Below are positions 2 to 5,333 of a DNA stretch of 5,333 bases, one piece after another. The DNA comes from Candidatus Thorarchaeota archaeon (GTDB taxonomy: Archaea; Asgardarchaeota; Thorarchaeia; Thorarchaeales; Thorarchaeaceae). Position 1 is the stretch's first letter. The number at the start of each line of letters is the position of its first letter. The stretch is from contig JAEOST010000625.1 in assembly GCA_016840245.1 (NCBI GenBank), forward strand, positions 1-5,333, in the 5' to 3' direction. The notes under the pieces are model-generated. The model had not been told where the DNA came from. It worked only from the letters and a program-made list of their open reading frames with translations, and did not search any database. Made by a program: the position numbers and the translations under genes.

Positions 2-1771
2 CAGCTCTGCAAACCTATGAAGGTCTTCATTTGTAACGACTCTACTATGGATACAGAATACATTAGACGTACTGCAATTGCACGTGGAGAGGAAACTCCT
101 CTAGCTAATCCTCATCATACTGTTCACTTTGATGGATATTTTGATCAAGCCCGTGATAAGGAGCGAACAGTCTATCTTGTTCCCAAGGGTGAGAGTCTGG
201 GAGAACAGTTAGCACAACATGACCGAGAGGACGGTCTCGAAATTGCAAAGAAGAGGCTCGATGGCAGTATGGAGAACAAGAAGATGGTGGTAAGATTCTT
301 CTCTCTTGGACCTCTTGACTCACCATTCTCAATTCCTGTGGTTCAGATTACTGACTCATTCTATGTAGCTCACAGTGAAGATCTGTTGTATAGACCCGGT
401 TACGATTATTTCAGAAGAATGCCAGAGGATAAGGAAATCTTCTGGATGCTTCACTCCTCAGGTAAGCTGATACATGCAGTCAGCACTGATTGGAAGAAGC
501 GCGGAGTCATGATAGACTACAAAGAGAATACCGTCTACAGTATGAATACTCAATATGCGGGAAATACAATTGGGCTAAAGAAACTGGCACTCAGGCTCGC
601 GATTCGTAAAGCAGATCGCGAAGGATGGTTAGCTGAACATATGTTTCTCATGGCAGTGCATGGTCCTCATGATCGGAAGACCTACTTCACTGGAGCATAT
701 CCATCAGGATGCGGCAAGACAAGTACTTCTATGGTACGAGGAAATACCATTGTAGGAGACGACCTTTCGTACTTGAGAGTGCTTGATGGAAAGGTAAGAG
801 CGGTCAATGTTGAACGTGGAATCTTCGGTATCATCAGATCAGTCACTCAAAGAGATGACCCAGTTATTTGGGATATACTTCATTCCAATCAACCTGCTAT
901 CTTCTCGAATATCCTAATTACGGAAGATGCAGAAGCTCGCTGGCTTGATGATGGTAAAGAAAATCCTGATGCTGGGATTAACCACTCTGGTGAATGGTTT
1001 ACTGGGAAAGTCGATAGACATGGTGAAGAGATTCCCTATGCTCATAAGAATGCCAGATATACAATCATGCTCGATGGTCTATCGAACCTAGACGGTTGTC
1101 TTGATGACCCTCGGGGAGTAGAAGTTGGTGGCATCATCTATGGAGGTCGTGACTCGGATACATGGGTTCCAGTCCAACAGTCTCGAAGTTGGGAACATGG
1201 TATAATTACTATGGGTGCAAGTCTTGAGTCTGAGACCACAGCTGCAACGCTAGGACCAAGCGGAGTTAGAAAGTTCAATCCCTTCTCAAATCTAGACTTT
1301 CTATCAATCCCACTTGGAAAATATATTGAGAATAATCTTGACTTTGGAAGACTCTCCTCGGAGAGCCCTCTCATATTTGCTGTCAATTACTTCCAGAAGG
1401 ATAAAGATGGAAACTTCCTTACTGATAAGAGAGACAAGCAAATCTGGCTAAAGTGGATGGAACTCCGTGTTCATGGAGAGGTTGATGCAATAAAAACACC
1501 AACTGGATTCATACCGCTTTACAAAGACCTGAAGGAGCTCTTTGAAAAATACCGTGACAAGGACTACACCAAGGAAGATTACGATGTACAGTTTACAATT
1601 CGAATTCCAGAATTAGTGGAGAAGATTAAACGGATTGAGATGATATATCGTGATACTGTCCCTGACGCTCCACCAGTTCTCTTCGAAGAACTTGCACGAC
1701 AAAGTGATAGGTTGGAGCAGGCAAGAGAAACTCATGGTGATCATATTCTACCTGAAACATTTCTGAACTGA
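2..1771 (+). CDS. pckG: Phosphoenolpyruvate carboxykinase, GTP type (5' end cut by window)
   Basis: This cytosolic enzyme interconverts oxaloacetate + GTP and PEP + CO2 + GDP at the gluconeogenic/anaplerotic node. Residues are numbered from the ATG at 17. The substrate-binding stretch FSLGPLDSPFS is at 95-105. Y180 and N183 precede K189, and GWLAEH ends in H208; K189 and H208 match the Mn2+ ligands of animal PEPCK. The P-loop AYPSGCGKTSTSM (227-239) holds C232, the equivalent of the hyperreactive cysteine. VGDD (246-249) is the kinase-2/metal motif. R347 (HKNAR) and R378 (GGR) match conserved substrate and nucleotide arginines. SWEHG is at 391-395. The frame is open to the window edge and reads QLCKP before this Met, aligning with LCQP about 40 residues into animal PEPCK, so Met17 is internal and roughly 20-40 residues are missing. 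The guanine-pocket motif GFGEN of animal enzymes is not conserved. GTP use is inferred from family. Confidence 0.95.
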   Translation, partial: QLCKPMKVFICNDSTMDTEYIRRTAIARGEETPLANPHHTVHFDGYFDQARDKERTVYLVPKGESLGEQLAQHDREDGLEIAKKRLDGSMENKKMVVRFFSLGPLDSPFSIPVVQITDSFYVAHSEDLLYRPGYDYFRRMPEDKEIFWMLHSSGKLIHAVSTDWKKRGVMIDYKENTVYSMNTQYAGNTIGLKKLALRLAIRKADREGWLAEHMFLMAVHGPHDRKTYFTGAYPSGCGKTSTSMVRGNTIVGDDLSYLRVLDGKVRAVNVERGIFGIIRSVTQRDDPVIWDILHSNQPAIFSNILITEDAEARWLDDGKENPDAGINHSGEWFTGKVDRHGEEIPYAHKNARYTIMLDGLSNLDGCLDDPRGVEVGGIIYGGRDSDTWVPVQQSRSWEHGIITMGASLESETTAATLGPSGVRKFNPFSNLDFLSIPLGKYIENNLDFGRLSSESPLIFAVNYFQKDKDGNFLTDKRDKQIWLKWMELRVHGEVDAIKTPTGFIPLYKDLKELFEKYRDKDYTKEDYDVQFTIRIPELVEKIKRIEMIYRDTVPDAPPVLFEELARQSDRLEQARETHGDHILPETFLN

Positions 1772-2362: not shown

Positions 2363-2416
2363 ATGTCTACAGAAGAAAATGTATGTCACATCAGGGTTAT
2401 GGAGTTAGCACCATGA
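2363..2416 (+). CDS. Possible 17-codon upstream leader peptide
   Basis: An ATG at 2363 opens a short frame reading MSTEENVCHIRVMELAP and ends at TGA 2414-2416. That stop overlaps the ATG at 2413 in the arrangement ATGA, typical of translational coupling. No clear ribosome-binding site precedes 2363. The peptide matches no family I recognise, and chance is quite possible for a frame this short. Confidence 0.15.
   Translation: MSTEENVCHIRVMELAP
2401..2404 (+). promoter_or_regulatory. Ribosome-binding site favouring the hdrA start at 2413
   Basis: GGAG at 2401-2404 lies 8 bases before the ATG at 2413, a normal Shine-Dalgarno distance. The in-frame ATG at 2383 is preceded only by A-rich sequence (agaagaaaatgt). 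The ten residues between the two starts do not resemble the flavoprotein N-terminus. Confidence 0.5.
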
Positions 2417-5217
2417 CAATTGAACAACCGACAGAAACAACGGAAGGGGGTCTCGGAGATCAGGCCCCAACCGCACTCGTTGTTGGTGGCGGAGTAGCTG
2501 GTATGCAGGCTGCACTTGATATTGCTAATCAAGGGTTCAAAGTCCATCTTGTTGAAAAAACGTCTAGTATCGGAGGTCGAATGGCCGCCATTGACAAGAC
2601 GTTCCCAACACTGGATTGTTCTGCATGTATTCTTACTCCGCGACTGAGCGAAGTTGCGCGACATCCGAATATTGAGCTATTGACATATTCGGAAGTCAAG
2701 AGAGTAACAGGAAGAGCCGGGAACTTCCATGTTGAGGTTCTCAGAAGACCAAGATATATCCTTGAGGACAAATGCTCTGGATGCGGAGATTGTGTTGAAG
2801 TATGCCCTATAGAGACCGCCAACGAATTTGATGAGGGTCTCGGATTTAGAAAGGCAACTTACATACCATTCCCACAGGCGACCCCTAATGTCTATACAAT
2901 AGACAAGAAGGATCATCCTGCATGCAGAATAAATTGTCCCGCAGGTGTAAATTGTCAGGCTTTCGTTATACTGACCAATCAAGAGAGATATGCCGACGCT
3001 ATCAGAATCGTTAGGGATAACATCCCATTCCCAGCAACACTGGGCCGAGTCTGTGTTAGTTGGTGTGAAGGACAGTGTCAGAGAGGAGAATATGACGCTA
3101 GTGTCAGTATAAGAAACCTACACCGGTTCTTAGCAGATTATGAAACAGAAACAGGAACTAAACCACCAGTCGAAGCCAAGATAGACAAAGATGAGAAAGT
3201 GGCAGTGGTTGGTGCTGGTCCCGCAGGTATTGCGGTAGCTTACCAACTCGCACGACTAGGTTATCCTGTGACTGTATTTGAAAAGCGCTCTGAAGCAGGA
3301 GGACTGCTGAAATGGGCGATTCCTTCATACAGACTCCCACGAGAGATCCTCGATGAGGAGATTGACTGGGTTGGTGAACACGGAGTCGAGTATAGGATGG
3401 ATTCCAATATTGAGTCTGTGGACCAACTGAAGAAGGATGGTTACAAGGCAGTATTCATTGCAACAGGAGCATCACGAAGCAACAAGCTTATGATCCCTGG
3501 TGAGGACGCAAAGAATGTCTATCACGCAATAGACTTCCTTGACAAAGTAGCAAGTGGAGAAGCTCCGAAGGTCGGAGAGAGAGTGGCGATAATCGGTGGC
3601 GGTGATGCTGCCGTCGACTCTGCAAGAACTGCCCTAAGACTTGGAGCGACTGAGGTTACAGTAATCTATCGTCGTTCACAGGTTGAAATTCCTGCAATCC
3701 CAACAGAAGTTGAGGATGCAAGGCAAGAGGGAATTCGTTTCATGTTCCTAACAACTCCAGTTGAGGTCTTAACCCAACGTGGAGAGGTTCAGGGTGTCAA
3801 ATGTATACGAATGCGACTTGGTGAGCCAGACCATTCAGGAAGAAGACGTCCACTACCAATCCCCGACTCTGAGTTCACAGTAAATGCGGACCAGATGATC
3901 ATTGCAGTTGGTCAATCTGTCGAACCAATCCCATTGCATAACAGTGTTGACACTACTGAGTGGGGTACAATAATGGTAGACCAAGTGACACTTCAGACCA
4001 ATAAGCAAGGTGTCTTTGCTGGTGGAGACTGTGTACTCGGTCCAGCAACTGTAGTCCAAGCAATTGGTCAGGGCAATGAGGCAGCAATTTCTATAGACCG
4101 TTTCCTCCGTGGTGAGGATCTTCGTGTAGGGCGTGAGCCACAGCACTATAGGATTGCTAAACCCGACGTTGACCCAGCTCACTTTCAGCCACAAGCTCGA
4201 GCCCATATGAACAAAGAGGGGATTGCCAGTAGAAAAGGCGGTTTCTCTGAAGTTGAGAAAGGATTTGACAAGGATGTCGCAGTCAGTGAGGCTGGACGAT
4301 GTCTGAACTGTACAGTGTGCTGTGAGTGTATGGAGTGTGTCAAGGCTTGCGAGAGAGAAGCTATTGATCATTCGATGAAGGAACAGAAAATGGATCTGAA
4401 CGTTGGTGCCATTGTAGTCGCTACAGGATACAAACTGTTCGACGTCAGTAGGTACAGACGACTCGGATATGGACAGTTCCCGAACGTCATTACCGCAATG
4501 GAGTACGAGCGACTCATCAACGCAGCAGGTCCAACACTTGGGAATCTCATTCGATTCAGTGACGGAATGATGCCGAAGAACATTGGGTTTGTCCAGTGTG
4601 TGGGTGCTCGAGATACACAGATGGGTGTTCCAAACTGTAGCAGAGTCTGTTGCATGTACGGAATCAAAAATGCGGTCATGGCAAAAGAGCACGATCCTGA
4701 AGTTGAAGTCTCAATGTACTATGCAGACATCAGAGCCTTCGGAAAAGGATTCGAAGAGTTCTATCAGATGGCTGATACCCGCTTCGGTGTAAACTTCGTC
4801 CGAGGTAGGGTGGCAGAGGTTTCTGAAGACGCAAGTAATGGAGATCTTGATGTATTAGTTGAGGACACCGAAACTGGTGAATTGATGACGATTAAGCATG
4901 ATCTTCTAGTGATTAGTCCTGGATTAGTCCCAACTGACGACATGGCTCAACTTGCTGATGAGCTAGGTCTCGACCTCTCAGAAGAGGGATACATTGACGT
5001 ACGTGATGAATTAGTCGCACCTGTTGATACAAGCAAGGACGGAGTCTATGTCTGCGGATGTGCAGATGGACCCAAGGATATTCCTGACTCAGTAACGGCA
5101 GGAAGTGCAGCAGCAATGCGAGCAACAATCATTCTCGGAGAGATGGTTGCAGAGAAGGGCGAAGCGCCTGTTGGAAGTGTTGCTGCGGAATCGGAGGTAG
5201 AGGCTAAGCCTAGGTAG
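2413..5217 (+). CDS. hdrA: HdrA-like flavoprotein with nested GltD/NfnB-type NAD(P)H oxidoreductase module
   Basis: This is a soluble flavin/FeS subunit of a heterodisulfide reductase-like complex, 934 aa from the ATG at 2413 (944 from 2383). Layout: HdrA FAD site GGGVAG (25-30); LDCSAC (C69, C72); ferredoxin C121-C124-C127-C131. Then comes a GltD/NfnB/DPD-like module: FeS segment C171, C175, C181, C214, C218, C222; FAD site GAGPAG (267-272); YRLP (306-309); NAD(P) site GGGDAA (395-400) with YRR (419-421), which suggests NADP(H); and AGGDC (536-540). The module ends at a second cluster region: C630, C633, then C636-C639-C642-C646 in CxxCxxCxxxC spacing. HdrA resumes with GAIVVATGY, the characteristic C729-x12-C742-x3-C746-C747 cluster motif, and GPKDIPDSV (886-894). 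The N-terminal domain and C-terminal ferredoxin of methanogen HdrA are absent. Predicted role: passing electrons between NAD(P)H, ferredoxin and HdrBC, perhaps by flavin bifurcation. The family is clear; partners and direction are inferred. Confidence 0.93.
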   Translation: MTIEQPTETTEGGLGDQAPTALVVGGGVAGMQAALDIANQGFKVHLVEKTSSIGGRMAAIDKTFPTLDCSACILTPRLSEVARHPNIELLTYSEVKRVTGRAGNFHVEVLRRPRYILEDKCSGCGDCVEVCPIETANEFDEGLGFRKATYIPFPQATPNVYTIDKKDHPACRINCPAGVNCQAFVILTNQERYADAIRIVRDNIPFPATLGRVCVSWCEGQCQRGEYDASVSIRNLHRFLADYETETGTKPPVEAKIDKDEKVAVVGAGPAGIAVAYQLARLGYPVTVFEKRSEAGGLLKWAIPSYRLPREILDEEIDWVGEHGVEYRMDSNIESVDQLKKDGYKAVFIATGASRSNKLMIPGEDAKNVYHAIDFLDKVASGEAPKVGERVAIIGGGDAAVDSARTALRLGATEVTVIYRRSQVEIPAIPTEVEDARQEGIRFMFLTTPVEVLTQRGEVQGVKCIRMRLGEPDHSGRRRPLPIPDSEFTVNADQMIIAVGQSVEPIPLHNSVDTTEWGTIMVDQVTLQTNKQGVFAGGDCVLGPATVVQAIGQGNEAAISIDRFLRGEDLRVGREPQHYRIAKPDVDPAHFQPQARAHMNKEGIASRKGGFSEVEKGFDKDVAVSEAGRCLNCTVCCECMECVKACEREAIDHSMKEQKMDLNVGAIVVATGYKLFDVSRYRRLGYGQFPNVITAMEYERLINAAGPTLGNLIRFSDGMMPKNIGFVQCVGARDTQMGVPNCSRVCCMYGIKNAVMAKEHDPEVEVSMYYADIRAFGKGFEEFYQMADTRFGVNFVRGRVAEVSEDASNGDLDVLVEDTETGELMTIKHDLLVISPGLVPTDDMAQLADELGLDLSEEGYIDVRDELVAPVDTSKDGVYVCGCADGPKDIPDSVTAGSAAAMRATIILGEMVAEKGEAPVGSVAAESEVEAKPR

Positions 5218-5226: not shown

Positions 5227-5333
5227 ATGGCAGCTGAAGAAACTGAAAAACAAAAGAGCCACACTCCATCCTCAGACTTCGCGAAGGAGGTAGAATCGGT
5301 TGAGGGTGGCGAGGCTATCAACAAGTGTGTTCA
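5227..5333 (+). CDS. hdrC: Heterodisulfide reductase subunit C-like protein (3' end cut by window)
   Basis: Only 35 codons are present. After a polar, probably disordered leader (about residues 1-16), the protein reads DFAKEVESVEGGEAINKCV. This aligns with the stretch just before the first ferredoxin motif of HdrC (FSEKV..GGESV..C.QCGTC in methanogens), so K-C-V with C34 should be the start of the first CxxCxxCxxxCP cluster motif. HdrC carries two [4Fe-4S] clusters and passes electrons from HdrA to the catalytic HdrB. The gene starts 9 bases after the hdrA stop, so the two are almost certainly one operon. The window ends before the clusters can be seen, and a fused HdrC-HdrB or another small ferredoxin is not excluded. 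Confidence 0.75.
   Translation, partial: MAAEETEKQKSHTPSSDFAKEVESVEGGEAINKCV

Follow-up and report, generated by a model that had tools for sequence, protein, structure and literature searches.

How is a heterodisulfide reductase subunit HdrA built when a complete GltD/NfnB-type oxidoreductase lies within its chain, and what could such a protein do? The question is raised by a stretch of 5,333 nucleotides (the window; contig JAEOST010000625.1 of assembly GCA_016840245.1, Candidatus Thorarchaeota archaeon), in which a long plus-strand open reading frame (ORF) extends from 2383 to 5217 and encodes 944 amino acids (aa). The start at 2413, already chosen in a preliminary description of this DNA, gives 934 aa and is the likelier of the two since that Met is where the majority of homologues start; residues are numbered here on the 944-aa ORF, and subtracting 10 gives their numbers in the shorter form. 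We refer to the protein as HdrA{GltD}. It is an Asgard member of the type III HdrA proteins with the A9 domain pattern, and its closest named relatives are the Candidatus Thorarchaeota proteins P0002-P0004 (79-85%). Its nesting and fold, the conservation of its motifs and the gene order in its relatives were computed directly and are presented first.

In a phmmer comparison with the PDB, residues 144-291 of HdrA 5odc_A match query residues 29-176, and residues 293-571 match 646-924. Since these two flanking matches are contiguous in 5odc_A, query residues 177-645 interrupt HdrA. NfnB, StnC and GltD match residues 178-578, extending to 653 in the best matches, and the profile NF009410 (PRK12771) covers aa 173-677 with a score of 520.5 (cut-off 516). 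Pfam recognizes PF14691 (Fer4_20), PF07992 and PF00070 in this module, which has Rossmann domains for flavin adenine dinucleotide (FAD) and for NADP. We modelled the protein with AlphaFold from a 77-row alignment (mean predicted local distance difference test 88.1, predicted template modelling score 0.83). On this model, 427/427 residues superpose with HdrA 8rvu_a at 1.3 Å across 27..922, while 9bov_A and 8oh5_C superpose on the insert over 472 residues at 1.9 Å (model 176..655 and 175..655, respectively), with which Foldseek agrees, and 5jca_L, an NfnB-like fold, superposes on the GltD part over 398 residues at 1.5 Å. These superpositions indicate that the two halves rebuild one HdrA core, with GltD looped out. 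The domain search and structure prediction that the preliminary description had suggested thus bear out its central proposal: the split phmmer match, NF009410 and the superpositions agree, the halves form one HdrA with GltD emerging from its inserted ferredoxin, and the nesting of a complete GltD/NfnB-type module within an HdrA core, in one chain, is confirmed.

That description had also warned of an assembly error joining two genes. The window alone cannot exclude such a chimera, for which no support was found, and its probability appears negligible: homologues P0001-P0086 (58-90% identity) have the same architecture, the same gene neighbourhood recurs in 20 distinct Asgard loci, and the order HdrA-GltD-HdrA lies in one ORF in 71 of the best 80 genome loci, taken by similarity to the query from a longer list, being cut or split in the other 9. 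Such homologues of the same architecture across many assemblies rule the chimera out in practice.

The exact point of insertion can be read from the GltD-less tandem paralogs of the Asgard operons. In the window, YTIDKK is followed by 469 residues and then by C646xxC649xxC652xxxC656; the paralogs read YTID-x3-CxxCxxCxxxC at that site (9/12, the pattern having missed 3). Comparison of this empty site with the window places the insert between the two motifs of the inserted ferredoxin, the second of which is whole. Insertion within the second cluster motif, as previously proposed, is ruled out by the paralogs and by the intact C646/C649/C652/C656. The inserted module contains C181, C185, C224, C228, C232 and H247, a FAD site GAGPAG (277-282), an NADP site GGGDAA (405-410) with YRR (429-431), and a C-terminal EAGRCLNC (C640, C643), and the Cys ligands of the module are kept in 77/77 alignment rows. 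EAxRCLxC stands in the N-terminal part of NfnB but in a C-terminal position in the window protein and in StnC/NfnABC; its reading as a displaced NfnB N-terminal segment comes from low-scoring alignments (9.0 and 12.9 bits) together with the like placement in StnC/NfnABC. On the basis of this placement, C640 and C643, which belong to the GltD module, would complete the cluster of C181 and C232. By ligand count the chain would hold five [4Fe-4S] clusters, together with two FADs and one NADP site, in line with the several clusters, two flavin sites and NAD(P)H site of the preliminary description, the latter sites being backed by motif and fold matches. In the HdrA core, C82 corresponds by alignment offset to Cys197 of 5odc, and E709 and K762 correspond to E356 and K409, which hold the bifurcating FAD in HdrA (PMC12054007). 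Both residues are present in 77/77 alignment rows.

Features of the window (coordinates in nucleotides).
Feature	Coordinates	Strand	Evidence and remarks
hdrA{gltD} gene	2413..5217	+	934 aa from the likelier start; profile and homologue matches
HdrA core, first half (aa 29-128)	2467..2766	+	FAD Rossmann motif GGGVAG; CxxC C79, C82; C79 and C82 in 77/77 alignment rows
HdrA inserted ferredoxin, first cluster motif and linker to YTIDKK (aa 129-176)	2767..2910	+	C131/C134/C137/C141
Inserted GltD/NfnB-type module (aa 177-645)	2911..4317	+	Pfam, NCBIfam, PDB and structure matches
HdrA inserted ferredoxin, second cluster motif	4318..4350	+	C646/C649/C652/C656; empty site in tandem paralogs
HdrA core, second half (aa 657-925)	4351..5157	+	E709, K762, C739, C752, C756, C757; no C-terminal ferredoxin after it
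hdrC, first 35 codons (truncated by the end of the window)	5227..5333	+	79% over 24 aa with HdrC of L001
GTP-dependent phosphoenolpyruvate carboxykinase (PEPCK)	17..1771	+	NF003253, 587.5 bits (cut-off 504)

The HdrA match begins only at aa 29, there is no Cys beyond 893, and a Pfam scan of aa 889-944 gave nothing informative. Thus the N-terminal Fe-S domain and the C-terminal ferredoxin, both features of class A1, are missing from the window protein, which for this reason is not a complete Hdr-type unit. Its membership of HdrA stands nonetheless, as the absence of these ends is the published A6/A9 pattern.

A partner that could supply the missing ends is encoded nearby in relatives. We compared 20 distinct Asgard loci (from 21 rows, L161 being L001, and with L158 and L162 coming from the same genome as separate contigs). 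Genes hdrC-hdrB adjoin the nested gene in 19/20, a complementary hdrA' is present in 16/20, with the contigs ending first in the other 4, and mvhD, mvhG and mvhA are all present in 13/20. The nested layout, which occurs in many bacteria too, sits in a hydrogen-linked (mvh) gene cluster of Asgard archaea. In L001, the closest locus (78% identical), the order is PEPCK, hdrA{gltD}, hdrC, hdrB, hdrA', mvhD, mvhG, mvhA. Among 18 distinct HdrA' ORFs, 17 are without the inserted ferredoxin (the exception is the 664-aa ORF of L157), and 17 have two C-terminal cluster motifs (the L148 ORF is cut); the window chain has the inserted ferredoxin, the Cys197 equivalent and both FAD-holding residues. Complementary HdrA pairs are known from ANME (PMC9012536). 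A route from NAD(P)H to an Hdr-type flavin, as formerly envisaged, is plausible; that it should be self-contained does not hold, with both ends missing and HdrA' in the operon of the relatives.

Several other features of these loci deserve mention. A GltD-less HdrA core of 433-475 aa is found in 12/20 loci, and in L146, L147, L149 and L152-L156 a tandem core of ~450 aa stands between hdrB and hdrA'. PEPCK lies upstream in 4/20 (L001, L003, L159 and L160), an arrangement shared with the window. A putative aldehyde-ferredoxin-oxidoreductase-like gene, so labelled from its sequence alone, lies divergently upstream in L001 (5139-7385, minus strand) and in 8 other Asgard loci.

The preliminary description had left the choice between NADH and NADPH open, and the motifs now favour NADP(H) in the Asgard proteins. 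Counts were taken from alignments; regular-expression counts missed many rows and caught stray FRRS/FRKS elsewhere. The Asgard-type rows comprise P0001-P0086 (the named ones are from Thor-, Hermod-, Odin- or Promethearchaeota, and many are without a name), the window and L001-L003. GxGxxA with YRR is found at the nucleotide site in 89/89 of these nested rows. Elsewhere YRR is present in 63/77 double-HdrA rows, 13/16 rows with an N-terminal domain, 14/15 other short forms and 116/117 rows of a third nested set, the remaining one having YRK. The 14 double-HdrA rows without YRR, such as L054 (Moorella stamsii) and L055 (Desulfotruncus arcticus), read C/A-L/I-E, and C/A/S-L/I-E takes the place of YRR also beyond them, in L059 and L065; as this replacement is acidic, some members of the family may use NAD(H). 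Six named Bathyarchaeia proteins have GxGxxA-YRR by pattern count, and the Bathyarchaeota locus L006 has GxGxxG with YRR. Type III HdrA has been argued to use NADH on the basis of a GxGxxG motif (PMC12054007); in the window protein GxGxxG sits at the FAD site, 277-282, and not at the nucleotide site, which reads GGGDAA with YRR. In T. maritima NfnB, YRR binds the extra phosphate; the YRR-bearing DsrL-2, of the same enzyme family, is strictly NADP(H)-dependent, and in relatives that lack YRR, NAD(H) is preferred or obligatory (PMC7596348). GxGxxA with YRR at this site thus points to NADP(H) rather than NADH in the Asgard nested proteins.

A second signature concerns the cluster next to the FAD of the GltD module, of which Lys170 is a ligand in StnC and Glu in NfnB (PMC10482914). 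The position aligned with Lys170 is His247, and it is His in 89/89 Asgard-type rows. Lys stands there in 72/77 double rows (3 His, 2 Arg), 15/16 rows with an N-terminal domain (1 His), 14/15 other short rows (1 Arg) and 117/117 of the third set, so that His as the fourth cluster ligand is typical of the Asgard group and not exclusive to it.

Variation of other kinds is seen at the nucleotide site. In 15/101 short rows of the third set, including P0315, P0319 and P0354, its Gly loop is altered, with CVHRL for GGGNV, and YRR/YRK is kept. In the ~1650-aa homologues P0087 and P0090, GltD has a second, tandem nucleotide-binding domain with ESRDEMP/ESKEEMP, as against YRRSRDEIP in the first; double GltD matches are likewise found in P0091 and P0096, and 5 proteins are of the type H1a-G-G-H2-H1a-H2.

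What could this anatomy be for? The reading that we prefer, to which we would give about an even chance, is that HdrA{GltD} pairs with the HdrA' of its operon on an MvhADG-HdrBC base and serves as the NADP(H) port of a bifurcating complex. HdrA' would bring the N-terminal domain and the C-terminal ferredoxin, and would be without an inserted ferredoxin. Electrons from H2 would pass through MvhD and the C-terminal ferredoxin of HdrA' to the FAD of the HdrA{GltD} core and be split there, one going through HdrC/HdrB to a disulfide and the other through the clusters of the inserted ferredoxin, the two GltD clusters and the GltD FAD to NADP+. NADP(H) would then take over the docking place of free ferredoxin in ordinary HdrA, and the reaction may also proceed in the opposite direction. 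We infer the heterodimer, the bifurcating flavin, the direction of flow and the disulfide acceptor from the FAD-holding E709/K762 (77/77), the operon order, the complementary HdrA' and the occurrence elsewhere of fused HdrA{GltD}-HdrA' chains. The latter, of ~1450-1650 aa, are found in bacteria and some archaea, and their C-terminal HdrA part has no match over the inserted ferredoxin in 28/33 examined. The GltD of StnC, which a PDB search places among the closest solved GltD modules, is NADPH-linked and has a non-bifurcating FAD (PMC10482914).

A number of points weigh against this reading. Since hdrC runs off the end of the window, the presence of hdrA' and mvh genes beyond it is deduced from L001, which opens likewise with PEPCK, hdrA{gltD} and hdrC, and mvhG/mvhA were not found on the rest of the L067 contig. 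MvhA of L001 (17633-18949) and of L003 (8653-9987) ends in KLPDPLVKT, without the usual C-terminal DPCxxC, and this motif, intact or with a stop, was not found in the ~400-450 bases downstream of either gene; hydrogenase activity is therefore not assured, and a split MvhA subunit encoded elsewhere is possible. The fused chains P0089, P0093, P0094, P0095 and P0097 keep the inserted ferredoxin in their C-terminal HdrA part. No biochemistry of type III HdrA was found in the available portions of the literature, NADH has been proposed as a mid-potential donor instead (PMC12054007), and bifurcation could take place at the GltD FAD, as it does in NfnB.

The proposal of a pyridine nucleotide donor is the most serious of the alternatives, although we think it unlikely. 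NADPH (or NADH) would supply mid-potential electrons, which would reach the HdrA FAD by way of GltD and the inserted ferredoxin and be divided there, one branch leading to HdrBC and the other to a second acceptor (ferredoxin, or protons through Mvh). This fits the same anatomy, has been put forward with NADH for Bathyarchaeota (PMC12054007), and agrees with an in-cell NADPH potential of about -370 mV (PMC10482914), with GxGxxG (and YRR) in L006, and with C/A/S-L/I-E in 14/77 double rows and a few others. In the Asgard operon, however, MvhDGA and HdrA' already give the canonical mid-potential entry, and NADH as the donor is at odds with GxGxxA and YRR in all Asgard-type rows and in the six named Bathyarchaeia proteins. 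Taking into account that a chain without a C-terminal ferredoxin has only two ports when alone, the protein might also be a plain electron wire between NADPH and HdrBC (or the hydrogenase), with no bifurcation; this is improbable given E709/K762 in every alignment row and the HdrA' of the operon, which supplies the missing port. More improbable still, by a little, are two bifurcating flavins in one chain, with the GltD FAD acting as in NfnB, a possibility raised for HdrA-NfnB (PMC9012536) and consistent with the NfnB-like fold seen on 5jca_L. By score, the solved GltD modules most similar to that of the window protein are those of Stn/NfnABC, and the StnC flavin is non-bifurcating (PMC10482914); moreover, the cluster ligand is His in the window protein, Lys in StnC and Glu in NfnB.

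The preferred NADP(H)-port reading can be extended, rather tentatively and with less confidence than the reading itself, to interchangeable HdrA heads. The GltD-less HdrA core, with a port for free ferredoxin, and HdrA{GltD}, whose NADP(H) port is part of the chain, would share HdrA', HdrBC and MvhADG, and the low-potential branch would end at either ferredoxin or NADP+. In that case the inserted ferredoxin would be a plug-in site in which GltD cassettes have been placed or swapped repeatedly.

The distribution of the architecture is broad. Titles among the best 80 loci name Asgard archaea, Bathyarchaeota, Euryarchaeota, Desulfobacterota-type lineages, Chloroflexi, Clostridia, Acidobacteria-type lineages and others. 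A search of 59 genomes around G001 gave a match at E <= 1e-100 in 33, including some GltD-less cores, and in 25/59 one match spans the whole nested order.

Phylogenies of the two parts, built separately as the preliminary description had suggested, conflict. On the HdrA-core tree, the Asgard short nested backbones form one clade (support 100/100), near bacterial double forms and a Bathyarchaeota short form (98/94), and the ~1140-aa forms fall among ordinary HdrA. On the GltD tree, the Asgard ~1140-aa L003_12824 groups with the GltDs of the Asgard short forms (100/96); its backbone is sister (100/100) to L112, the GltD of which is placed elsewhere. A single nested lineage on the HdrA core, set against 8 GltD-less rows, is rejected (log-likelihood difference, dlnL, 121; approximately unbiased p-AU 1.8e-50), as are the Asgard short forms and L003_12824 as one HdrA-core clade (dlnL 147, p 3e-96); the one-clade test of L003_12824 with L112 is marginal (p 0.029). 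On the GltD part, a single clade of every nested row, tested against 11 'standalone' rows of which some may be cut nested proteins, is strongly rejected (dlnL 151, p 2.1e-5), and only marginally so (dlnL 77, p 0.026) without P0124, P0186 and P0205; placing every ~1140-aa form in a single GltD clade gives p 1.6e-7. All these p values are weakened by the groups having been named after the first tree was seen. The conflict suggests either that GltD was inserted several times or that one cassette, acquired once, was then swapped among HdrA backbones at one and the same position, and either fits the data. Two insertions have been inferred from nine type III sequences (PMC12054007). Within the Asgard tree, nested and GltD-less tandem copies intermix, with 4 changes, and the GltD-less copies of L146/L147 fall with nested copies from within their own clade (98/94), the pattern expected of gene conversion; repeated loss and gain would fit the intermixing as well.

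GltD is also found in other company. Proteins of ~680-763 aa (P0135, P0136, P0138, P0139, P0143, P0145, P0157, P0192 and P0194) join GltD to an MvhD/FlpD domain (PF02662), another wiring of GltD to the Mvh-Hdr system, and P0176 and P0181 carry instead PF02754, which we take to be the Cys-rich domain of HdrB.

Asgard archaea are the closest archaeal relatives of eukaryotes, and their redox balancing has been reconstructed mostly from annotation, in which named homologues of the window protein appear as 'FAD-dependent oxidoreductase' or 'heterodisulfide reductase subunit A'. If true, an NADP(H) port on the Asgard Mvh-Hdr system would link H2, NADP(H) and a disulfide, and such models would change. 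The nine type III sequences in print greatly understate the breadth of the family, and a single biochemical study would therefore bear on many anaerobes.

The exact nesting, which the preliminary description thought might be new, is already published: HdrA-NfnB insertions (HdrA9/10/11) of the methane-eating ANME-1 archaea were described in 2022 (PMC9012536), and 'type III HdrA', class A9, was defined in 2025 from nine sequences (PMC12054007). Both, like the window protein, have an HdrA core with a GltD/NfnB module of ~470-500 aa in the inserted ferredoxin, and A9 is likewise without the N-terminal domain and the C-terminal ferredoxin (PMC12054007). The published cases are from ANME-1 and Bathyarchaeota, whereas the window protein is of the Asgard type, with an hdrCB/hdrA'/mvhDGA operon in its relatives; no ANME-1 name occurs among 120 listed relatives, a minority of which are named. 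Set beside the published type III proteins by their descriptions, it differs in its His fourth ligand and in GxGxxA-YRR. Mvh-Hdr genes are expressed in soil Asgard archaea (PMC11291895, 2024), in the available portion of which the GltD insert is not mentioned, and in the portions of the literature searched we found no published description of the Asgard nested family, its operon, or its cofactor and evolutionary details. The MvhADG-HdrABC complex of methanogens (5odc, 8rvu) shares with it the HdrA core fold (427 residues, 1.3 Å), the FAD-holding Glu/Lys and the operon partners; in the window protein, by contrast, the ferredoxin docking site carries GltD, and the functions of HdrA appear to be split over two complementary chains. 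The GltD of NfnB (4ylf, 5jca) and GltD itself have the same fold and the FAD and NADP sites, but there EAxRCLxC is N-terminal and the fourth cluster ligand is Glu. Closer is the GltD of StnC/NfnABC (8oh5, 9bov, 9n5u), with the fold in common over 472 residues at 1.9 Å, 38-42% identity and a C-terminal EAxRCLxC; in those proteins GltD is joined to NuoG-like parts, and in the window protein it is joined to HdrA.

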